Below are positions 4,490-22,835 of a DNA stretch of 22,835 nucleotides, in pieces; position 1 is the first letter of the stretch; the number at the start of each line of letters is the position of its first letter. The stretch comes from a virus. The stretch is taken from the IMG/VR virus record IMGVR_UViG_3300029989_000160, positions 1-22,835 of that record; one strand, given 5' to 3'. The notes beneath the pieces are model-generated. The model made no database searches, had not been told where the DNA came from, and saw only the letters and a program-made list of their open reading frames with translations. The position numbers were made by a program, and so were the translations under genes.

Positions 4490-4845
4490 TGTCGGTCTTT
4501 CCGTCCTATGCCGAGCTGCTGATCAGCGGCTACGGCGAGAAGCGCGAATCGGCGCTGCTGCGCACCGAGATGGAGTCCGGCCCGCCCAAACAGGCCAGGA
4601 TCAAGTCGCGCGTGATGGTCGAGCGCGCCGTCGCGATCCGCCTCATGAGCCTGGCCGACTATCAGGCCTTTGTCGCCTGGTTCGCGCTCGATCTTGACGA
4701 GGGCGCCGGCTGGTTCGATTTCAATGATCCGGTCTCAGGAGTGTCCAAGCCAGCGCGTTTTGTCGGCGGCGGGTTGGAGGCTACGCCGACGACGGCGCGT
4801 TTAAACGGCTGGACGATCAACGCCAAAATAGAAACCTGGGGCTGA
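4486..4845 (+). CDS. Minor tail protein in lambda-M position
   Basis: A 119-residue protein starting MMSVFPSYAELLISGYGEKR, with the first ATG overlapping the tape measure stop (ATGATG at 4486). It has no transmembrane part. The middle (RVMVERAVAIRLMSLADYQAF) and the pair of aromatic motifs (WFALDLDEGAGWFDFNDPVSG) recall phage proteins that follow the tape measure and help build the tail tip, similar in position to lambda M. The C-terminus WTINAKIETWG is a typical final strand for this small tail-tip fold. It is one base from the next gene. Identification comes from gene order and general look, not a motif I can name. Confidence 0.55.
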   Translation: MMSVFPSYAELLISGYGEKRESALLRTEMESGPPKQARIKSRVMVERAVAIRLMSLADYQAFVAWFALDLDEGAGWFDFNDPVSGVSKPARFVGGGLEATPTTARLNGWTINAKIETWG

Positions 4846-4846
4846 C

Positions 4847-5323
4847 ATGGCCCGCGCCTATTCCGCTGAGTACAAATCGACGCTGGCCTCTACTGCCGCG
4901 CCCGAAGCGCCCATAACGCTGCTCGAAATCGATCACGCCGACCTGTCGCAGCCTGTCCGCGTCGTCAATGACACATCGAATGTCATCAGCAATGGCGTCG
5001 AGTACATCGCCTGCCAGTTCCGTTGCGACATGCCTTCGGACTTTGAAAACCAATTGCCGAAAGCCACGCTTTCCGTTGATAACGTCGGCAAGGAGCTGAT
5101 GTATTGGGTCGAGACCAGCGGCGGCGGCAAGGGAGCGGCGGCGCGATTCATTCAAATCATGCGATCAAGGCCCGATCAGATCGAGTGGGAAATAAGCATG
5201 GACCTGACCAACATCAAAGCGACGACTTCCGAAGTCACCGCCGACATGGGCTACGACAACATCTTCACGCGCCCGGCAATCTCGATGCGCTTCGACAAAT
5301 TCACCGCGCCGGGGATCTTCTGA
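4847..5323 (+). CDS. Tail-tip protein, DUF1833-like (lambda-L position)
   Basis: A 158-residue protein beginning MARAYSAEYKSTLASTAAPE. It continues PITLLEIDHADLSQPVRVVN and NGVEYIACQFRCDMPSDFEN, which is the pattern of the DUF1833 phage family: short lead helix, 'LLEI.H..L..P.R.V.D', 'Y.p..F....P.D....P...L..DNV'. Members replace lambda L in many siphophages and take part in tail-tip hub assembly. Lambda L carries an iron-sulphur cluster, and the few cysteines here give no sign of one. The stop codon TGA at 5321-5323 shares its A with the start of the next gene, so the two are likely co-translated. Confidence 0.7.
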   Translation: MARAYSAEYKSTLASTAAPEAPITLLEIDHADLSQPVRVVNDTSNVISNGVEYIACQFRCDMPSDFENQLPKATLSVDNVGKELMYWVETSGGGKGAAARFIQIMRSRPDQIEWEISMDLTNIKATTSEVTADMGYDNIFTRPAISMRFDKFTAPGIF

Positions 5324-14149: not shown

Positions 14150-14202
14150 TGTAGGTAGATATGTGGTACGGAATGAGGGGAGTAGCGGAGATGCCTACAA
14201 AT
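14150..14202. repeat. Right pair of inverted TGTAGG boxes (possible arm-type sites)
   Basis: TGTAGGTAG at 14150-14158 and CCTACAAAT at 14194-14202 repeat the pair found at 13931-13984. The second box overlaps the first codons of the integrase gene, so binding there could also repress integrase expression (inference). Confidence 0.45.
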
Positions 14203-15435
14203 TGCCTGCGGGATAGTGATTGCAAGGCCGCCCGGCCAGCGGAGAAGCTTTTCAAGCTGTTTGATGGCAATGGCCTGCACCTGGCTGTGCTACCGACTGG
14301 CGGCAAGGTCTGGCGCGCTGCCTACCGATATGCCGGCAAGCAACAGACCAAGAGCTTCGGGCCCTACCCGGAAGTCTCGCTAGCCGAGGCGCGGCAGAAA
14401 CGCGACGAGCTGCGGGCGGCGTTACGCGATGGCCTGGATCCGATGGCGGATAGGAAGGCAACGCGCAGCGAGAACCGGCTGCACGGCAAGTCGCGCAAGT
14501 GGATCACCTTGCGCGAGGCATCAGAAGAATATTGGGAGGGCCGCAAGGATCTTTCGTCGTCCTACCTGGCAAACGCCAGGCGCGGCATTGCCATGCACCT
14601 GTGTACAGCGCTTGGCGATCGCGACATTGCCAGCATTACCCGCGTCGACCTGCTGGCCGAACTAAAACGCATGGACGCCGCCGGCCTGCACGTCTATGTG
14701 CGCAAGGTCCGTATGTGGGCCGATCAGGTCTTCGAGTGGGCCGTTGAAAACGAGAAGGCGACGATCAACCCGGCCAAGCTGATCAACCCGAAGAAGGCCT
14801 TTGGCCAGTCGAAGGTCGAAAGCTTTTCCGCGCTGACCCTGCGCGACGTGCCGGCCTTCCGCCAGCGGCTGGCCATGGAGGGCGAACTGCAGAGCGTACT
14901 GGCCTGCAAGCTGCTGGCCCTGACCTGGACGCGCACGATCGAGCTGCGGATGATGGAGTGGTCGGAGATCGATGAGGCCGAGGCGCTGTGGCTGATCCCC
15001 GAGGGGAAGATGAAGCGGGCCAAGGATCACCTGGTGCCGCTGTCTCGCCAGGCCGTGGTGTTACTGAAGGAATTGAAGGCCCGTAGCCGCAGGAGTCGCT
15101 ACGTCTTTCCGTCAGATCGGACGCTGGAAAGGCCGATGTCTGAGAATGCCGTGCTCTATCTGATCCACCGCATCGGCTACAAGGGGAAATTGACGGGCCA
15201 TGGCTTCCGGTCGATCGCCAGCACCTGGGCCAATGAGCGGGGATATACGCCGGATGCGATCGAGCGGCAGCTGGCTCACGTGCCGGAGAACAAGGTCAGG
15301 TCCATTTACAATCGAGCCGCGTACCTGCCCGAGCGGCGCGCCATGTTGCAGGCGTACGCCGACTGGATGGACTCATGCGATGTTGACGCCGGCGTTGCGC
15401 AGGGTCGAGACACGCCAGCCGAGCGTCTTGCGTGA
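14191..15435 (+). CDS. int: Tyrosine integrase, P4/DUF4102 type
   Basis: A 414-residue site-specific recombinase that integrates and excises the phage DNA. Start ATG 14191 was chosen for the upstream GAGGGGA at 14175-14181 and the family's usual N-terminus; ATGs at 14161 and 14173 are in frame but less likely. The N-terminal DUF4102 arm-binding domain is visible (LFDGNGLHLAVLPTGGKVWR, then KSFGPYPEVSLAEARQKRDE). The catalytic set is complete: R248 in TRTIELRMMEW, H337 and R340 in HGFR, H363 in LAHVPENK, and Y373 in VRSIYNRAAYL. Length is normal for the family. It lies downstream of a terminator and the att-like core, and its last 63 bases overlap the convergent Xis-like gene. Confidence 0.92.
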   Translation: MPTNCLRDSDCKAARPAEKLFKLFDGNGLHLAVLPTGGKVWRAAYRYAGKQQTKSFGPYPEVSLAEARQKRDELRAALRDGLDPMADRKATRSENRLHGKSRKWITLREASEEYWEGRKDLSSSYLANARRGIAMHLCTALGDRDIASITRVDLLAELKRMDAAGLHVYVRKVRMWADQVFEWAVENEKATINPAKLINPKKAFGQSKVESFSALTLRDVPAFRQRLAMEGELQSVLACKLLALTWTRTIELRMMEWSEIDEAEALWLIPEGKMKRAKDHLVPLSRQAVVLLKELKARSRRSRYVFPSDRTLERPMSENAVLYLIHRIGYKGKLTGHGFRSIASTWANERGYTPDAIERQLAHVPENKVRSIYNRAAYLPERRAMLQAYADWMDSCDVDAGVAQGRDTPAERLA

Positions 15436-15561
15436 CATCCTGACGTCGGGCAGTGGGAGCTTCCCGGCAACCATCCAGCGCCGAATGCTCTCGCTGGTGA
15501 CACTCATCAGGGCCTGCAACTCGGGGCGAAAGATCACCCGGTCTTTTTCGTCGATAGTCAT
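15373..15561 (-). CDS. AlpA/Xis-like DNA-binding protein (probable excisionase)
   Basis: A 62-residue protein with a MerR/AlpA-type winged helix: SVTSESIRRWMVAGKLPLPD is the helix-turn-helix plus 'wing' start ('v..stirr.i..G.lP.P'), followed by SRKTLGWRVSTLRN. In P4-like phages AlpA-type proteins act as excisionases, or switch int expression. It ends inside the 3' end of int on the opposite strand (63-bp overlap), so transcription of the long minus-strand operon would run antisense into int. Its ATG overlaps the stop of the upstream ASCH-like gene (ATGA), making it the last gene of that operon. It could instead be a phage regulator. Confidence 0.7.
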   Translation of the reverse strand: MTIDEKDRVIFRPELQALMSVTSESIRRWMVAGKLPLPDVRMSRKTLGWRVSTLRNAGVNIA

Positions 15562-16193
15562 TTATTGATCGCTTTCTTGAATTCAATAACCCATACATAC
15601 GGATTGGCTGCCCATGAGCCGGGGCCGTTGATCGACTGCCAAAGGTTCGCATACCCGAGCCTGTACGACTGACGTCCGATCTCGGATACATCCCACGCAG
15701 ACAGGCAGCCAGCGCTGACGCAGGCGTTCAGACTTATTCCTTCTGCCATACAGTCTTTCTCGCTGATGTCCTGCAGGCGCTCGACGCGGACGCTGACGAT
15801 TTCGAGCGTGATGCGGCTGGCCCATCGCGGCATGTGGATTGACGGCCGGCACTTGAATCCCCATTGCTTGAAGTCAGCGCGATCTTGTTCGTCCCAACCG
15901 TACGCGTCGTAATAGTAAGGAGCCCAGGTATCGGCGCCCTCGCGCATCATCTTCGGCGTGCGTTCGGGGCGTTCCCATCCATTTTCGCGCACCCAAAGGC
16001 GATCGCCGGGCTGGCCGTATGGAGAGTTCTCGTAGCTTCCGTTATTCACCTCGCCGGCGAGTTCTCCAGGGACCAACAGGCAGCCAAAGCCAAGGTCCTT
16101 GCGCGGCTTCACATTTCTCCGAGTCTGCGTTTTCTTGCCGGCGAGCAGCGCGCGCACCATCGGCGCCGAGAATAAAATCGGTCGTTCTTTCAC
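15558..16193 (-). CDS. Phage ASCH/PUA-like protein
   Basis: A 211-residue protein. The GTG start at 16193 overlaps the methyltransferase stop. The protein then begins (M)KERPILFSAPMVRALLAGKK and TQTRRNVKPR, the recurrent start of phage proteins in the ASCH/PUA-like group. Later motifs fit as well: GDRLWVREN (about 64-72), PRWASRITLEIVSVRVERLQ and DISEKDCMAEGI, ending SWAANPYVWVIEFKK. ASCH folds bind RNA or modified nucleotides, and the exact role of these phage members is unknown. Its place after a DNA methyltransferase hints at recognition of modified bases or nucleic acid, as inference only. An upstream in-frame ATG at 16259 overlaps the methyltransferase and is not preferred. Confidence 0.6.
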   Translation of the reverse strand: MKERPILFSAPMVRALLAGKKTQTRRNVKPRKDLGFGCLLVPGELAGEVNNGSYENSPYGQPGDRLWVRENGWERPERTPKMMREGADTWAPYYYDAYGWDEQDRADFKQWGFKCRPSIHMPRWASRITLEIVSVRVERLQDISEKDCMAEGISLNACVSAGCLSAWDVSEIGRQSYRLGYANLWQSINGPGSWAANPYVWVIEFKKAINK

Positions 16194-17992
16194 GCTGCTC
16201 TCCTGATAGCCAGTTCGGCAAGGTTGGCAAACACCAGCGCGGACGCCACCGGTGGACAAACAGAATTTCCAACCATGCGCACCTGTGCTGTCTTCGTGAG
16301 GGTTAGGCCTTGCGCCGGGTCGTCGCCGATGATGTAGCGCTCGGGGAATCCCTGCGCGCGGTAGAGCTCACGAGGGGCAAGCATACGCAGGCCGATGTCG
16401 CTGATCTGGTATTGCTGTCCGGCGACTATCACCAGGCCGAAGCGGTCGCGCGCGGTAATCGTGTGCAGCGGGTCTTCCATTCGAGGGTCTTGGTCGACGC
16501 CGTAGTAGGCGGTCAGGAAGGCGCGAACCTCCGCGAAGTGGTTGCCCTGCGCGCTGATGGTATGCAGCGGCTCAGTGGGCTCTTGCCCGGGGGCGTGCGT
16601 TCCGGCGTCGCCGCGCATCTTGACTAGGCTGCTGGTGACAACGCCCGCGACTGCTCCGCTTGCTGTGATTGTGTTCAGCGGCTGCTCGACGCTGCGGATG
16701 CCATGGCTGAATCGTGGTGCGCCGTTGGCCGACTGTTCGCCGTGGCCCATGTGCACAAGATTTGCGGCGACGATGCTGTTGTGGTCGACGCTAGTGACGG
16801 TCGGCACCGGGTTGCGCAGGTCATCGCCGACGACACCGGTGTAGTGCTTGGCGATGAACGCAGAAACGAGCGCATGCTTTGAGGATCCGACCAGCGTACC
16901 AATCGGCCTCTCAAGGTCGAGCGCCCTTGGCGACTGGCCGTCGCGCTCGCCGTAGCCGGTCTGGATCATCGTCGGCGCGATCAGCGCGTGGTGACCGCCT
17001 TTGGTCTGGGCGCAAATCGTTCGCAAAGGTTCGTCAATGGGCATGCAGCGCGGGCTTGAGGCGTTGGCGTGCTCGGTAAGCACTGGCGCGACGAGCGCAT
17101 GATTTCCACCGCCGGCGTGAATCGTCCGGAACGGCTCGGCCATGCTGTAGCTGCGGTCGCCTCCGGTGCGCCCCTTGTGCTCACCATGAGCCAGCCCGAC
17201 GATGAACGGATCCGCCGCATTGACCACATAGCGCATGATCCCCTTGGCGATCCGGCGCAGAGTGGCATCGGCCAGCGGCCGGGCGCGTTCAAAGATCGAC
17301 GGGCAGGGCAGGGTGAAGTCGATGCATTCCGCCGCGGTGCGCCACGGTTTCAGCTTCTTGGCCTTAGCCGTCTTCGGGTCAGCATGGGTCGGCGCCGGCC
17401 AGACAATCGACTGACCGTCACAGCGCGCGATCAGAAACAGGCGTTTGCGGATCGTCGGTGTGCCGTAATCGCAAGCCTTGAGCACCTTCCATTCGACGAC
17501 ATACCCCTGGCGGCGCAACGCATTGACGAACACGTTGAACTCGCGCCCCTTCTGCTTGGCGTCCGGCCGCATACTGCCGTCGGCGCCCTCGACCAGCGGC
17601 CCCCAGGTAATGAATTCCTCGACGTTCTCGAGCATGATCACGCGCGCCTTGAGCGCGGCCCAGCGCAGCGTCACCCAGGCCAGCCCGCGAATCTTCTTCT
17701 CGACCGGCTTGCCGCCCTTGGCCTTGGAAAAGTGTTTGCAGTCGGGCGACAGCCAGACGAGGCCGACCGGGCGGCCCTGCGTCACCTCGCGCGGGTCGAC
17801 GTCCCAAACGCTCTCGCAGTAGTGTTTCGTCTCGGGGTGGTTCGCCTTGTGCATCGCGACAGCCTCCGGGTCGTGGTTGATCGCGACGTCGACGCGCCGG
17901 CCAAGCGCCAGTTCGATTCCTGTGCACGATCCGCCACCGCCCGCGAAATTGACGACCAGCATTTCCTTATGGATGTCGAGGTTGAGTTGCAT
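16190..17992 (-). CDS. Cytosine-5 DNA methyltransferase with repeated target domain
   Basis: A 600-residue enzyme that transfers a methyl group from S-adenosylmethionine to C5 of cytosine. Motifs: I FAGGGGSCTG (16-25), IV SPDCKHFS with catalytic C85 (Asp instead of the usual Pro before Cys), VI ENVEEF (122-127), VIII TIRKRLFLIA (180-189), and X VGNSVCPPVA (574-583). Between VIII and X lie about seven degenerate repeats (286-518) of the form '(E/D/Q/N/R)P-x-x-T-(I/L/V)', for example EPFRTIHA, EPLRTICA, QPLNTITA, EPLHTISA and DPLHTITA. They replace an ordinary target-recognition domain. The enzyme may protect phage DNA from host restriction. Start ATG 17992 is two bases after the upstream stop; M11 is an alternative. 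Confidence 0.88.
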   Translation of the reverse strand: MQLNLDIHKEMLVVNFAGGGGSCTGIELALGRRVDVAINHDPEAVAMHKANHPETKHYCESVWDVDPREVTQGRPVGLVWLSPDCKHFSKAKGGKPVEKKIRGLAWVTLRWAALKARVIMLENVEEFITWGPLVEGADGSMRPDAKQKGREFNVFVNALRRQGYVVEWKVLKACDYGTPTIRKRLFLIARCDGQSIVWPAPTHADPKTAKAKKLKPWRTAAECIDFTLPCPSIFERARPLADATLRRIAKGIMRYVVNAADPFIVGLAHGEHKGRTGGDRSYSMAEPFRTIHAGGGNHALVAPVLTEHANASSPRCMPIDEPLRTICAQTKGGHHALIAPTMIQTGYGERDGQSPRALDLERPIGTLVGSSKHALVSAFIAKHYTGVVGDDLRNPVPTVTSVDHNSIVAANLVHMGHGEQSANGAPRFSHGIRSVEQPLNTITASGAVAGVVTSSLVKMRGDAGTHAPGQEPTEPLHTISAQGNHFAEVRAFLTAYYGVDQDPRMEDPLHTITARDRFGLVIVAGQQYQISDIGLRMLAPRELYRAQGFPERYIIGDDPAQGLTLTKTAQVRMVGNSVCPPVASALVFANLAELAIRRAA

Positions 17993-19287: not shown

Positions 19288-19844
19288 AGCGTCGTCTCGC
19301 CGGCGATCTCGAACACGAAGCCAAGCGCCGCATCGATCTGTTCATAGAGCTGCTCAAGCGTTCCATTGTTGACCAGACCGCGGTCGACCGTGATGGCGGA
19401 CTGTTCGATCTCGCTTTGGTGCGCACTGTGCTCGGTTGTTGCGGCGCCGGGGCGGATTACGCGCCAGACCTCGCCGCCCAGCCGCTTGACCAGACCCGCC
19501 TCGCTCAGAAACCGAACGTCAGTGATTACGACATCCTCGCCGACGTGCGCCGCGGCGCGCAGCCGGCGCGCCATGATGTCGGTCCAGAGCCCATCGGCGA
19601 TCATATGGCGGCCCCAGTCCGTGCCCAGCGTCTGCATCAGTCGCCGTGGACTGCAGTTGAGCTGGGAAATAACCGATTCCTTGTTTTCCGGCCGAAAGTG
19701 GTACGGCTCGAGATCGAGGCCGGCGATCAGCATGGCGCGTATTGGGTCGGCGAAGGCGGTCGGTGCGAAGCCATGCGCTTTATTCAGATAGGCGCTGACG
19801 GTGTCTTTTCCAGACATTGCCGCGCCGGTGAGTCCAATAATCAT
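19284..19844 (-). CDS. Deoxynucleoside monophosphate kinase
   Basis: A 186-residue P-loop kinase that phosphorylates deoxynucleoside monophosphates. The Walker A motif is GAAMSGKDT (residues 7-15) in MIIGLTGAAMSGKDTVSAYL. The following FADPIRAMLIAGLDLEPYHF and RRLMQTLGTDWGRHMIADGL belong to the phage dNMP kinase pattern (T4 gp1-type), including 'LQ.LGT...R'. VVITDVRFLSEAGLVKRLGG is also typical. It would support dNTP supply for phage DNA synthesis. Its ATG overlaps the reverse transcriptase stop (ATGA), and GGAG lies just upstream inside the RT gene. The two are therefore probably translationally coupled, so extra dNTP supply for cDNA synthesis is possible (inference). Confidence 0.85.
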   Translation of the reverse strand: MIIGLTGAAMSGKDTVSAYLNKAHGFAPTAFADPIRAMLIAGLDLEPYHFRPENKESVISQLNCSPRRLMQTLGTDWGRHMIADGLWTDIMARRLRAAAHVGEDVVITDVRFLSEAGLVKRLGGEVWRVIRPGAATTEHSAHQSEIEQSAITVDRGLVNNGTLEQLYEQIDAALGFVFEIAGETTL

Positions 19845-20911
19845 TTTTTTCTCCGGTAGGTTTTGGTTAAATCACCCTTGATGCAGTGGCCGCGATAGCG
19901 AAGGGTATTGGCGAGCTGCGCCCGGTCATGATGACTATGCCCCGACTGGCGAAACAGCCCGAAATAGCTGTTGGCCGTCTCGAAGAGCTTGTCTGATTCG
20001 ATCTCGCGCACACGGCGCAGTGCATCGTTGAACGTACGCCGCCGGGTGACGCGCCGCCACGGCTTGATCACCTGGCCAATGAAGTCGATGCCGCGATCAA
20101 CAGGCTGCAGGATCGTCTTGGTCGGGTTGAGCCTGGCGTGCAGCCGGTTAGGAAGAAACGTTTCGATCGCTTCGTGCGCGGCATTGAGCCACTGCGGCGA
20201 CTCGTGGAGTAGAACGAAGTCGTCGACGTAGCGGATGTAGTGCCGCGCGCCGATCCTGTGCTTGACGAACTGGTCGAGCACGTCGAGATAGACGTTGGCG
20301 AAGAACTGGCTTGACAGGTTGCCGATCGGCAGGCCGAGGTTCGCCGGCTGACTGGTCAGTCGCTTGTGCGCGGGAACACGCTCAAGCAACGCTGCATTGC
20401 CGCGCAGTTCGTAGTTCTGGCGCGGGTCATGAAACAGCACCAGGTCAGCCAGCCAAAGCCACCATGGCTCGCTGACGCGCTTGGCGACCAGGTCGTGGAC
20501 GATGTGCTTGTCGATGCTGACAAAGAAGTTCGCCAGGTCGAGCTTGAGATACCACGCCGGCCGGGACCAGTTCTGCGAGACGCTGCGGACCTTCGCTTCG
20601 AGCCGTTGCGCCGCATAGAGCGTTCCGCGCCCTGGAATGCAGGCGCAACTGTCGGCGATGAAGGAAGCGTAGAACCGCGGCGAAATCCGGTTGTAGAGCA
20701 GGTGGTGCACGATCCGATCGCGGAAGTCTGCAGCCCACACTTCGCGCGGTTTTGGTCGGGTGATGACAAAGCAGATCGATCGACCGGGGCGATAGGTGCC
20801 GCGCTGCAGCTCGTCGAACAGCGCGCCGAGGTTGCGCTCGAGGTTCTGCTCGAAAGCCAGTGCACTGGCGCTGTTGCGCTTCGACTGGCGACAGTCGAAA
20901 TACGCTTGCAC
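19841..20911 (-). CDS. DGR reverse transcriptase
   Basis: The enzyme copies the template repeat RNA into adenine-mutated cDNA that replaces variable repeats. With the GTG at 20911 it has 356 residues (usual DGR RTs are about 300-400). Signature segments: AYFDCRQSKRN at the N-terminus, YLKLDLANFFVSID (catalytic Asp near 125), GLPIGNLSSQFFANVYLDVL (about 193-212, DGR-type motif), YIRYVDDFVLL (YVDD, about 228-231), and LNPTKTILQP...DFIGQ. No maturase or endonuclease domain is present. The frame stays open to 21262 through the template repeat, and no ATG lies between repeat and enzyme core, so the exact start is uncertain. GTG 20911 is my conservative choice without a visible ribosome site. The stop overlaps the dNMP kinase start. 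Confidence 0.9.
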   Translation of the reverse strand: MQAYFDCRQSKRNSASALAFEQNLERNLGALFDELQRGTYRPGRSICFVITRPKPREVWAADFRDRIVHHLLYNRISPRFYASFIADSCACIPGRGTLYAAQRLEAKVRSVSQNWSRPAWYLKLDLANFFVSIDKHIVHDLVAKRVSEPWWLWLADLVLFHDPRQNYELRGNAALLERVPAHKRLTSQPANLGLPIGNLSSQFFANVYLDVLDQFVKHRIGARHYIRYVDDFVLLHESPQWLNAAHEAIETFLPNRLHARLNPTKTILQPVDRGIDFIGQVIKPWRRVTRRRTFNDALRRVREIESDKLFETANSYFGLFRQSGHSHHDRAQLANTLRYRGHCIKGDLTKTYRRKK

Positions 20912-20953
20912 CAGTTCATGGAAGGAAAAATCAGGTTGGGGTGCTGCGCATTG

Positions 20954-21056
20954 ATCTGCGGACGGCTCGGGCGCGGAGCTTGTTGTTGATGTCGTTGTTG
21001 TTCTGGTTGCCGTTGTTGAAGTTCTGATACCAGGCGTAGCCAGAATCCGAGGCGTT
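20954..21056 (-). repeat. DGR template repeat (TR)
   Basis: This 103-bp stretch aligns without gaps to VR1 at 21611-21713. The first 29 bases of the alignment (plus coordinates 20954-20982) are identical in TR, VR1 and VR2. Over the next 74 positions VR1 differs at 17 sites, all of them adenines of the minus (coding) strand of TR; 27 adenines are present and no C, G or T differs. Read in the variable-protein frame it is rich in AAC codons, as in DGR templates. It lies between avd and the RT gene, with only 42 bases to GTG 20911. Confidence 0.93.
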
Positions 21057-21228
21057 GTGTGCTCGCTATCGATGTCGCAACCGCGAAGGCTTTCGCCGAT
21101 CAGGGTTGAAACTGCGCCAGACCGGTCACGGCGGCTGCCGTCGGTATCTGCGATGCGCATGTCGGTGGCCTTGTGAGCCAGCGGCGAGACCAGATTAATA
21201 AATCGCTCAGTCATGGTGGTCGTGACCA

Positions 21229-21582
21229 TCAGGAAGCGGGCGATGCGGAGGCGCGGCGCCATCCTGACGCTTGCTTGCCGACGCTGTTGGTGAGCTCGAT
21301 GGCCTTCGCGTATTGGGCGGTCGAAATCAGCCGCTTGTCCCGTGAAAGCCGCAACAGCAGTTCGGCGACTTGAAGGCGCTCGATCAACTCGCCGAGGTGT
21401 GGTGCTTTATCCCGCGCGCAGTTGGCGCGAAAGATCAGCACGACGATCTCAACGCATTCGGCGCTGATCTTGCCGCCGATGCTCTGCTTGAAGTCGCGCG
21501 GCATGCTCCTGACCGAGTCCGTAACGGAATCGAGCAGGTCGTAGGCGACCTTGTAGATCGGGAGTTGATTCGTGAGGGCCAT
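21229..21582 (-). CDS. avd: Avd, accessory variability determinant
   Basis: A 117-residue protein with the S23/four-helix-bundle pattern of DGR Avd: LPIYKVAYDLLDSVTDSVRS, then MPRDFKQSIGGKISAECVEI, then LGELIERLQVAELLLRLSRD and STAQYAKAIELTNSVGKQAS. Avd forms a basic pentameric barrel that binds template RNA and RT and is required for mutagenic cDNA synthesis. The C-terminal WRRASAS tail is basic. Length is normal. The ATG at 21582 is 14 bases after the VR1 gene stop and has no clear ribosome site. The gene is between a variable protein and the template repeat, which is the classical DGR order (target, avd, TR, RT). Confidence 0.88.
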   Translation of the reverse strand: MALTNQLPIYKVAYDLLDSVTDSVRSMPRDFKQSIGGKISAECVEIVVLIFRANCARDKAPHLGELIERLQVAELLLRLSRDKRLISTAQYAKAIELTNSVGKQASGWRRASASPAS

Positions 21583-21594
21583 GATAAATAGCTA

Positions 21595-21609
21595 AATTAC
21601 TGAATAATT
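21595..21609 (-). repeat. Short AT hairpin downstream of VR1
   Basis: AATTA and TAATT arms flank a five-base loop (coding strand AATTA-TTCAG-TAATT), just beyond the end of VR1 and covering the stop codon of the variable protein. The same 15 bases occur after VR2 (22774-22788) but not after TR. A hairpin or cruciform downstream of VR helps target recognition in the Bordetella phage DGR, and this one is shorter. Confidence 0.5.
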
Positions 21610-21962
21610 AATCTGCGGACGGCTCGGGCGCGGAGCTTGCTGCCGACGCCGTAGCTGAGCTGGCGGCCGTTGTCGAAGTACTGACACCAGGCGGAGCCAG
21701 AACCCGAGGCGTAAAGTTCGCCTGACCAGTACCAGTCGCTCTTGAACTGGGTCTTGCAGTTGGCGTACAGAAGGGCTTGTTCCTGGCGCGTCGGCAGCTC
21801 GCCGCCGGCCTTCTGAGCGAACGCCTTGGCCTTCTCCCAGGTGAGCGACTTGTCGCCCGCCAGCAGGATCAGGTGATGGCTCGGCGCGCCGTCCTCATTG
21901 AGGATCAGGCCGGCATAGGTCTCACCGGCGGCGAGTGTGGGAAGGGTGATGGTTTGTTCCAT
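21597..21962 (-). CDS. DGR variable protein 1, C-type lectin-like (DUF1566 type)
   Basis: A 121-residue protein starting at ATG 21962, with GAGGA eight to nine bases upstream; the frame upstream is not credible. It has LPTLAAGETYAGLILNEDG (about 8-25), then HLILLAGDKSLTWEKAKAFA. GGELPTRQEQALLYA (53-67) follows with DWYWSGELYASGSGSAWCQY (76-95) and RARAVRRL near the end. This is the DUF1566/C-type-lectin fold common in DGR targets ('W..A...A...GGELPTR.E...L', 'YWS', 'RAVR'). The variable face lies in residues 84-108, which come from VR1. No signal peptide is visible, so it may be a virion or cytosolic protein. It presumably binds a ligand that changes with variation. Confidence 0.88.
   Translation of the reverse strand: MEQTITLPTLAAGETYAGLILNEDGAPSHHLILLAGDKSLTWEKAKAFAQKAGGELPTRQEQALLYANCKTQFKSDWYWSGELYASGSGSAWCQYFDNGRQLSYGVGSKLRARAVRRLIIQ
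21611..21713 (-). repeat. DGR variable repeat 1 (VR1)
   Basis: This is the 103-bp partner of TR at the 3' end of a target gene. It encodes residues 84-118 of the variable protein. The constant block at 21611-21639 acts as the IMH-like initiation region; the remaining 74 positions contain 17 substitutions, all at TR adenines. They change 14 amino acids: residues 84, 87, 90, 93, 95, 97, 100, 102-108. N98 and others keep the template residue. Confidence 0.93.
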
Positions 21963-21985
21963 GGTGTTCCTCGAGGAAGAAGTGA

Positions 21986-22090
21986 TTAACGGGCGGACAT
22001 GGCCCACGCCAGACGGCGCGAGTAGTTGAGCCGACGCATGTAGCGCCAGGCGGTGACCGCGCGTGCCGCCAGGGCGATCAGGCGCGGCAC
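21986..22090 (-). CDS. Small basic ORF (34 aa)
   Basis: A GTG at 22090 with AAGGA nine bases upstream opens a 34-residue frame, (M)PRLIALAARAVTAWRYMRRL then NYSRRLAWAMSAR, ending with TAA at 21986-21988. It overlaps the preceding gene's 3' end by 13 bases and ends 23 bases before VP1. Its alternating Ala and Arg side chains suggest a short basic amphipathic helix. The frame fits the tight packing of the operon, but no family is recognised, and such a short ORF could be chance in GC-rich DNA. Confidence 0.35.
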   Translation of the reverse strand: MPRLIALAARAVTAWRYMRRLNYSRRLAWAMSAR

Positions 22091-22275
22091 GGCGCGACAT
22101 CCTTGACGAGTCTCGCGGCGAACAGCGCCCAGCCCTTAACCGGCTTGGGCAGCAGGGCGAACTGGCGGCCGTTGGTGTAGAGACGCAGGCCGGCCAACAT
22201 GGCCGCGTTAGCCTGCTGCACCAGGTCGAAGGCCCGGGCCTCGGGATCAACGGGGAAGAAGACGGCGGAGATCAT
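22078..22275 (-). CDS. Small DGR-linked protein of unknown function
   Basis: A 65-residue protein beginning MISAVFFPVDPEARAFDLVQ and continuing NAAMLAGLRLYTNGRQFALL, with a hydrophobic but not clearly membrane-spanning composition. Its ATG lies two bases after the preceding stop. It sits between the two target genes of the DGR. It is predicted to be mixed alpha/beta, with a C-terminal KGWALFAARLVKDVAPCRA helix. No family is recognised. Its place suggests a role shared with the variable proteins, such as assembly or attachment, but this is a guess. Confidence 0.5.
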   Translation of the reverse strand: MISAVFFPVDPEARAFDLVQQANAAMLAGLRLYTNGRQFALLPKPVKGWALFAARLVKDVAPCRA

Positions 22276-22277
22276 GA

Positions 22278-22721
22278 TCAGGCGGCCTGCTGGAGGTCGC
22301 CGGCGCCGGTGGCTTCCTGCACGATGTCCAGTGCAATGACCGGGCAGTCGAAGCCGACCAGCGTTAACGTCATCTCACTCATGCAGGGCGTGCCGGTCGG
22401 GCTGACGCCGGCGTATTTCGCGTCCTCACAATAAATGTTCAGGCCGGCTCTATGGATTGCGTTGCGAACAGTCGACAGCTTCTTGTTTCCGACTTGAACC
22501 CATGCGGTGATGCTGTTGAGGTGCACAGAAACTACAGGGTTTCCTGTGACACCAAGGGTATCGCTGGCCCTGAGCAGCGCTGACAGCGTCTCGCACTTAG
22601 TGATTTGTAGATGGTTTTCTTCAATGGCTTTGAGTTTCTTTCCGCACTCCGCCATCACCTCGCGCACCAGTTTTTGCTGCAGTGTCAATTCTGCGGCCGG
22701 GGTTTCAATCATTTCGAACAT
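22278..22721 (-). CDS. DGR-linked protein of unknown function (147 aa)
   Basis: This protein starts at ATG 22721 with AAGGA seven bases upstream. The first 50 residues are helical and charged (ELTLQQKLVREVMAECGKKL, then AIEENHLQITKCETLSALLR). The rest has alternating strands and helices (NPVVSVHLNSITAWVQVGNK, then YAGVSPTGTPCMSEMTLTLV). The end is alanine-rich. No motif could be matched. Its 54-base distance from the VR2 stop and two-base distance to the next gene place it between the two variable genes, so it may belong to the DGR target module. Codon use looks like its neighbours. Confidence 0.55.
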   Translation of the reverse strand: MFEMIETPAAELTLQQKLVREVMAECGKKLKAIEENHLQITKCETLSALLRASDTLGVTGNPVVSVHLNSITAWVQVGNKKLSTVRNAIHRAGLNIYCEDAKYAGVSPTGTPCMSEMTLTLVGFDCPVIALDIVQEATGAGDLQQAA

Positions 22722-22773
22722 GGTCAGATCCTTAGGATTCCACGTCTTGTAGCGGTCGGAGATCGAATTGATA

Positions 22774-22788
22774 AATTACTGAATAATT
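22774..22788 (-). repeat. Short AT hairpin downstream of VR2
   Basis: The 15 bases are identical to those after VR1: AATTA-TTCAG-TAATT on the coding strand, covering the TAA stop of the second variable protein. Identity between VR1 and VR2 extends through this element and into the constant 29-base block of the repeat. Confidence 0.45.
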
Positions 22789-22835
22789 AATCTGCGGACG
22801 GCTCGGGCGCGGAGCTTGCCGTAGATGCCGTGGTC
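22776..22835 (-). CDS. DGR variable protein 2, C-terminal end (partial)
   Basis: Only the last 19 residues plus the stop are in the window: DHGIYGKLRARAVRRLIIQ. The final twelve residues are identical to those of variable protein 1, so this is a second target with the same C-terminal fold. The visible hypervariable residues DHG-YG differ from the template's NND-NN at adenine codons only. The rest, including any different N-terminal domain, lies to the right of the window. It is first in the visible operon order. Confidence 0.85.
   Translation of the reverse strand, partial: DHGIYGKLRARAVRRLIIQ
22790..22835 (-). repeat. DGR variable repeat 2 (VR2, partial)
   Basis: The 29-base constant block (22790-22818) is identical to TR and VR1. 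In the next 17 bases, six substitutions are seen (1st, 2nd, 5th, 10th, 14th and 17th positions), all at the ten TR adenines in this stretch, and the other seven bases are unchanged. The rest of the repeat is beyond the window edge. Confidence 0.88.

Follow-up and report, generated by a model that had tools for sequence, protein, structure and literature searches.

A Phage Diversity-Generating Retroelement with an RT-15 RNA 5′ of Its Template Repeat and Octamer Repeats 3′ of Its Variable Repeats

Introduction

The means by which diversity-generating retroelements (DGRs) discriminate a variable repeat (VR) from the template repeat (TR), and by which they prime cDNA, have been worked out mainly in Bordetella phage BPP-1. 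There, copying of the TR by the reverse transcriptase (RT) and Avd introduces errors at adenines, and the VR is made the recipient by a mark on its 3′ side (PMC3240598, PMC12875486). The mark consists of a GC-rich hairpin with a GRNA loop, located 4-34 bp after the VR (PMC3240598). The question raised by the locus described here is how these tasks are accomplished in a DGR that possesses neither a spacer 3′ of its TR nor such a hairpin. The locus lies at one end of a virus record of 22,835 nucleotides (IMGVR_UViG_3300029989_000160), the whole of which is referred to below as the window. Very probably, it is a DGR through which a temperate siphophage varies two or more small proteins of C-type lectin fold, with an RT-15 RNA as guide and tandem octamers as the mark of its VRs.

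Organization and Identity of the Cassette

The cassette occupies the minus strand, opposite to that of the tail genes in the window, and reads in the order: end of the VR2 gene, two short ORFs, the VR1 target gene, avd, an RNA element, TR and RT. Its features are as follows:

19841-21160, minus strand: DGR reverse transcriptase (RT), with a conserved core from 19841 to ~20930
20954-21056, minus strand: template repeat (TR), gapless against VR1 and VR2, with adenine-only differences
21053-21245, minus strand: RT-15 structured RNA (Rfam RF03018), immediately 5′ of the TR; overlaps the avd end
21229-21582, minus strand: avd, accessory variability determinant (Pfam bAvd, phrog_3206)
21586-21604, minus strand: octamer direct repeats 3′ of VR1, TTCAGTAA TTTAGCTA TTT
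21597-21962, minus strand: target protein 1, 121 aa, C-type lectin (Lcl_C) fold by AlphaFold2 model and PDB match
21611-21713, minus strand: variable repeat VR1, at the C-terminal end of target 1 (residues ~84-119)
22765-22783, minus strand: octamer direct repeats 3′ of VR2, TTCAGTAA TTTATCAA TTC
22787-22835, minus strand: variable repeat VR2, found by TR alignment and cut at the contig end (whole copy in contig L005)

Both protein components named in the initial annotation were matched in profile searches. The RT matches phrog_1423 (E 2.4e-121), Pfam RVT_1 (E 1.1e-15) and the structure of the BPP-1 RT (8ub7, E 3e-37), and its translation contains LPIGNLSSQ and RYVDD, motifs of the IGxxxSQ and YxDD types, respectively. 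Avd matches phrog_3206 ("Avd protein of DGR", E 3e-31) and, above the cutoff, Pfam bAvd (E 7e-13); its match to NCBIfam DivGenRetAVD (E 2.7e-14) falls below that family's curated cutoff, and a PDB sequence search gave no match for Avd. With the RT motifs, the adenine changes between TR and VR, an Avd and a C-type lectin (CLec)-type target carrying its VR at the C terminus all present, the cassette is certainly a DGR by all core tests, because the TR/VR differences are confined to adenines in the window and in its relatives. Being a DGR is in itself ordinary, and a relative in Burkholderia phage Magia has already been annotated.

The tail genes of the window, encoding a tape measure and a J-like protein, support the assignment of the host virus as a probable siphophage, in agreement with the initial annotation. 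A tyrosine integrase gene on the plus strand and a C5 cytosine methylase gene on the minus strand (14161-17992) adjoin the cassette and denote a temperate phage. The earlier description of the DGR as complete holds for RT, Avd, TR and VR1 but not for the VR2 gene, which is severed by the contig end; likewise, that account was right about the DGR itself but omitted the 5′ structured RNA, the missing 3′ spacer and the octamers that replace the hairpin. The contig terminus (22835) falls inside VR2, where repeat or allele variation possibly broke the assembly.

Adenine-Specific Variation

The alignment of TR with VR1 is gapless, with an offset of 657. On the minus strand, comparison of 20951-21056 with 21608-21713 shows 17 of 34 adenines changed in VR1 (10 to G, 4 to T and 3 to C), versus 1 of 72 other bases (0/21 G, 0/14 T and 1/37 C; Fisher P 1.8e-9), and this bias together with the agreeing partial VR2 excludes chance. 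The lone C>T, at 20953, falls just beyond the TR (20954-21056), and TR/VR homology in the relatives ends there too, so that the repeat proper of VR1 contains no non-adenine changes. Partial VR2 in the window has six adenine changes and otherwise only the same C>T.

Since the window copy is cut, the full VR2 was taken from near-identical contigs. Three contigs from three other metagenomes (L004, L005 and L006) are 99.8-100% identical to the window, and L005 and L006 contain the complete VR2 gene. In the complete VR2 of L005, 15 of 34 adenines are changed, with only the C>T at 20953 besides, and all 15 sites that distinguish VR1 from VR2 are template adenines. The computed alignments thus agree with the gapless, adenine-only TR/VR1 pair, the partial VR2 and the adenine-confined divergence of VR1 from VR2 that had been proposed initially, apart from the C>T adjoining the repeat. 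Substitutions between L004 and the window fall in two tight clusters (17642-17657 and 22628-22674), the sequences being identical elsewhere, which suggests strain mixing or recombination.

The clade that includes this element is Beta-/Gammaproteobacterial and comprises more than 150 loci. A scan of viral contigs yielded 80 relatives that were kept, and a scan of bacterial genomes yielded 80 more, mainly from Burkholderiales, Rhodocyclaceae, Gallionella and Pseudomonas; most loci have one to three targets. The rate of change in 55 nonredundant relatives was 40% for template adenines and 0.5% for other bases. Changes at non-adenine sites, which the initial annotation had named as a possible objection, are rare by counts made with an unbiased mismatch score: 43/7834 versus 1420/3530 template adenines in the nonredundant viral relatives (109 VRs), and 87/11174 versus 1961/4795 in the bacterial genomes (156 VRs). 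Among clade VRs, template adenines preceding A were changed in 71% of cases, and those preceding G in 3/320. Because 267 of the 320 sites are structural Gln codons (CAG), enzyme bias and selection are inseparable here, and the sparing of adenines before G was not retained as a sign of enzyme bias.

Target Proteins

The AlphaFold2 model of target 1 has a mean pLDDT of 96.3 and adopts a C-type lectin fold, with the C-terminal domain of Legionella Lcl as its best PDB match (8q4e, E 2.8e-5). A match to Pfam Lcl_C (E 6e-5) falls below the cutoff, and a PDB sequence search with the target gave nothing useful. Target 2, complete in L005 (1553-1909), is a lectin-like protein of 119 aa. Target 1 matches a phage family of unknown function and not a named tail family, and its homologues in Magia reside in the integrase/regulator half of the genome. 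The targets presumably bind cell-surface ligands.

The RNA Element 5′ of the Template Repeat

The RNA at 21053-21245 is a full-length match to Rfam RT-15 (RF03018; positions 1-192 of 192), scoring 166.5 bits in cmscan against a gathering threshold of 82 (E 1.7e-41), and it abuts the TR, 3′ end to 5′ end. This association is conserved: RT-15 was found in the same place in 29/29 relatives scanned and in phages Magia, QDWS and Haboob, and the Cruim01 record lists it as a misc_RNA. In the RT-15 alignment, 26/56 pairs are changed on both sides, supporting the RNA fold. A pairing of UCUGGU in RT-15 with ACCAGA in the TR is part of the consensus fold, but its columns hardly vary and offer no covariation support, and it was not retained.

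The clade has no 3′ spacer, and the TR runs into the RT reading frame; the distance from the end of the TR to the start of the RT match has a median of -18 nt, versus -152 in relatives of BPP-1. An exception is L024, where a small gene of ~90 codons (4709-5000) parts the TR from an RT with its own start codon. Because RT-15 still adjoins the TR in L024, the two behave as a unit. RT-15 may bind the RNP and position RT-Avd, or may delimit the cDNA, from the 5′ side.

In the window, no ATG, GTG or TTG lies between the TR and the RT core, and the RT frame is open through the TR into RT-15. The likely RT start is the ATG at 21160, which is inside the RT-15 RNA, so that the RT frame passes through the TR. 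An RT-15 ATG is in frame with the RT at 47/52 nonredundant viral loci but at only 49/71 bacterial-genome loci, for which reason it was rejected as a universal start; at many bacterial-genome loci, the RT starts inside or after the TR. Since the frame is conserved strongly in the viral set and not in the bacterial one, start codons evidently move within the TR-RT stretch. The TR-encoded part of the RT is free of protein-level selection (nonsynonymous/synonymous-like ratio of 0.98 versus 0.07 in the core) and its structure is predicted with very low confidence, which would fit disorder.

It is conceivable, if rather doubtful, that RT-15 acts only as an RT stop or in translation control, with a primer-bearing spacer hidden inside the RT gene. 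A motif in the 3′ end of avd terminates cDNA synthesis in BPP-1 (PMC12875486), and RT-15 overlaps the end of avd, as would befit such a stop. The hidden spacer, however, is matched by no Rfam family at the RT 5′ end, and that end is without strong synonymous constraint (observed/expected of 0.83-0.85 over the first 30 codons versus 0.75-1.02 elsewhere). A spacer within the RT gene was dropped as a candidate for want of clear constraint at synonymous sites.

Octamer Repeats 3′ of the Variable Repeats

Directly 3′ of the VR, nearly all members of the clade possess tandem 8-nt units, typically three to four, [AC]TT[TC]A.. (in full, [AC]TT[TC]A[AGT][TC][AC]), which are absent 3′ of the TR and 5′ of the VR. 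The pattern TTYRNNNNTTYRNNNNTTY has only two matches in the window, one beside each VR; the other strand and a reversed-pattern control gave none. Of 162 nonredundant VR flanks, 96% had two units (6-11% of shuffles) and 69% had three (0.2% of shuffles); in a set of 219 such flanks, three octamers were present in 65%, compared with 0.1% of shuffles and 0% of TR flanks; and the lag-8 identity of VR flanks was 0.441 versus 0.268 (sd 0.006) in shuffles, although the relatedness of the sequences means that these shuffle statistics overstate independence. Across 2.8 Mb, both strands counted, the three-unit pattern occurred 210 times in VR flanks versus 30 times elsewhere, and several of the latter resemble flanks of VRs missed by the detector. 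Octamer arrays with no detected VR (L009 31, L031 3842, L042 215 and L092 4922) are likely flanks of targets missed by the repeat search, and the motif could itself serve to find targets.

A GRNA hairpin follows the VR in 0.5% of cases in the clade, versus 80% in the BPP-1 group and 69% in the ARM81mr group with the same code. Just after VR1 and VR2 of the window, the longest stem is 5 bp and AT-only, in contrast to the BPP-1 type of hairpin. A first hairpin test, on 36-nt flanks, gave no stems above chance. Within 70 nt, however, stems of at least 6 bp accompany 32% of clade VRs versus 2% in shuffles, almost none with a GRNA loop; an earlier claim of hairpin-free flanks was accordingly narrowed to the missing GRNA-loop hairpin, and some other hairpin role is possible.

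Most likely, the octamers mark the VR as recipient, the role played by the GRNA hairpin in BPP-1, but they could have a purpose other than homing. One such function would be translational, the repeats being no homing signal but a series of staggered stops in all frames that ends the target after a homing frameshift. A period of 8 (7 in gamma-phage DGRs) does run through all three frames, and stops in all three were found in 41% of flanks versus 6% in shuffles, yet 59% of flanks are without them, 45% of units have TTC for TTT, which loses the stop and keeps the period, and the conserved feature is the TTY spacing. A purely translational role therefore seems unlikely, and marking of the recipient is the reading followed below.

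Activity of the Element

VR1 is identical in four assemblies (the window, L004, L005 and L006) from different metagenomes, although the samples may not be independent. Among these near-identical contigs, the VRs differ at a single site, a template adenine of VR2 with A>G (window 22817); it distinguishes the window from L006, to which it is 99.98% identical over 7,992 bp. Given the adenine differences between VR1 and VR2, the invariance of VR1 and the one A>G in VR2, the element was certainly active in the past and is plausibly active now. Sequence comparison of two other relatives, L082 and L083, offers stronger evidence of activity: their RT genes are identical over the compared stretch, with 14 VR differences, all at template adenines, and 6 differences in 2.6 kb outside the VR. 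The proposal that the element is active or recently active hence has partial support, gaining from the VR2 allele and from L082/L083 and losing from the invariant VR1. That the repeats record past mutation by a cassette no longer working would suit a VR1 unchanged in four assemblies but is very improbable, since the ORFs are intact, the RT core is under strong purifying selection (ratio 0.07), one VR2 allele differs at a template adenine, and relatives with identical RT genes show adenine-confined VR differences.

Proposed Mechanism and Significance

A transcript from avd onward would carry the RT-15 fold followed by the TR. RT and Avd would bind this RNA and make from its TR a cDNA that carries errors opposite template adenines. 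This product would then replace VR1 or VR2 via the shared GC-rich homology at the 3′ end, and the tandem octamers 3′ of each VR, absent at the TR flank, would tag it as the recipient. A more specific version is put forward tentatively, as a real possibility rather than an expectation: RT-15 may do the job of the BPP-1 3′ spacer, perhaps through retron-like 5′ priming, and the octamers may replace the hairpin and be read by RT-Avd, possibly with one repeat per Avd subunit. If so, the related 7-8-bp repeats of other DGR groups would represent a general, overlooked target element. Moreover, a clade that has neither 3′ spacer nor GRNA hairpin and is still adenine-specific allows the general parts of the mechanism to be tested, the RT-15 family gains a concrete role to test, and directed-evolution tools could use the octamers as a target tag that is short and portable.

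Comparison with Known Systems

The cassette resembles Bordetella phage BPP-1 (NC_005357) in its target-avd-TR-RT order, adenine mutagenesis, CLec target and GC-rich 3′ homology. In BPP-1, however, a structured RNA (Phage_DGR, RF03022) lies 3′ of the TR, between TR and RT, whereas RT-15 lies 5′ of the TR; BPP-1 also has a spacer of ~144 nt, a GRNA hairpin after the VR, and as its target a tail protein encoded beside the tail genes. BalMu-1 differs as well, with an RT-14 RNA 3′ of the TR. Gammaproteobacterial DGRs of the Aeromonas phage phiARM81mr type share short phased repeats 3′ of the VR, with a period of 7 (lag-7 match of 0.45 versus 0.27), but these are YTG-based and a GRNA hairpin is also present (69%). 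In L177 and its relatives L260-L339, from gammaproteobacterial phages, 7-nt phased YTG repeats lie between the VR and the GRNA hairpin, and in Lagaffe-like DGRs the period is 8 (n=5).

Burkholderia phage Magia (MT701587) shares an RT that is 68% identical, Avd, the RT-15 RNA and two "lectin fold" proteins in the regulator/integrase half of the genome, annotated as potential DGR targets with IMH-like regions; its second target, by contrast, is ~6 kb away. The Magia annotation does not note RT-15, its record does not mention VR-flank repeats, and its TR/VR pair escaped the TR search used here. A TR that overlaps the RT ORF characterizes a class already known, DiGReF structural group 3 (PMC3521204), which in the section of that source covered here is defined by annotation only, with neither an RNA family nor a VR-flank repeat in its description. 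The literature searched held no description of VR-flank repeats, which is weak evidence of novelty given that subscription papers lay mostly outside its scope. The clade departs twice from the BPP-1 model, with an RNA 5′ of the TR and no 3′ spacer, and with octamers for the hairpin; the kind of system is known, and its variant of RNA layout and target mark is apparently undescribed.
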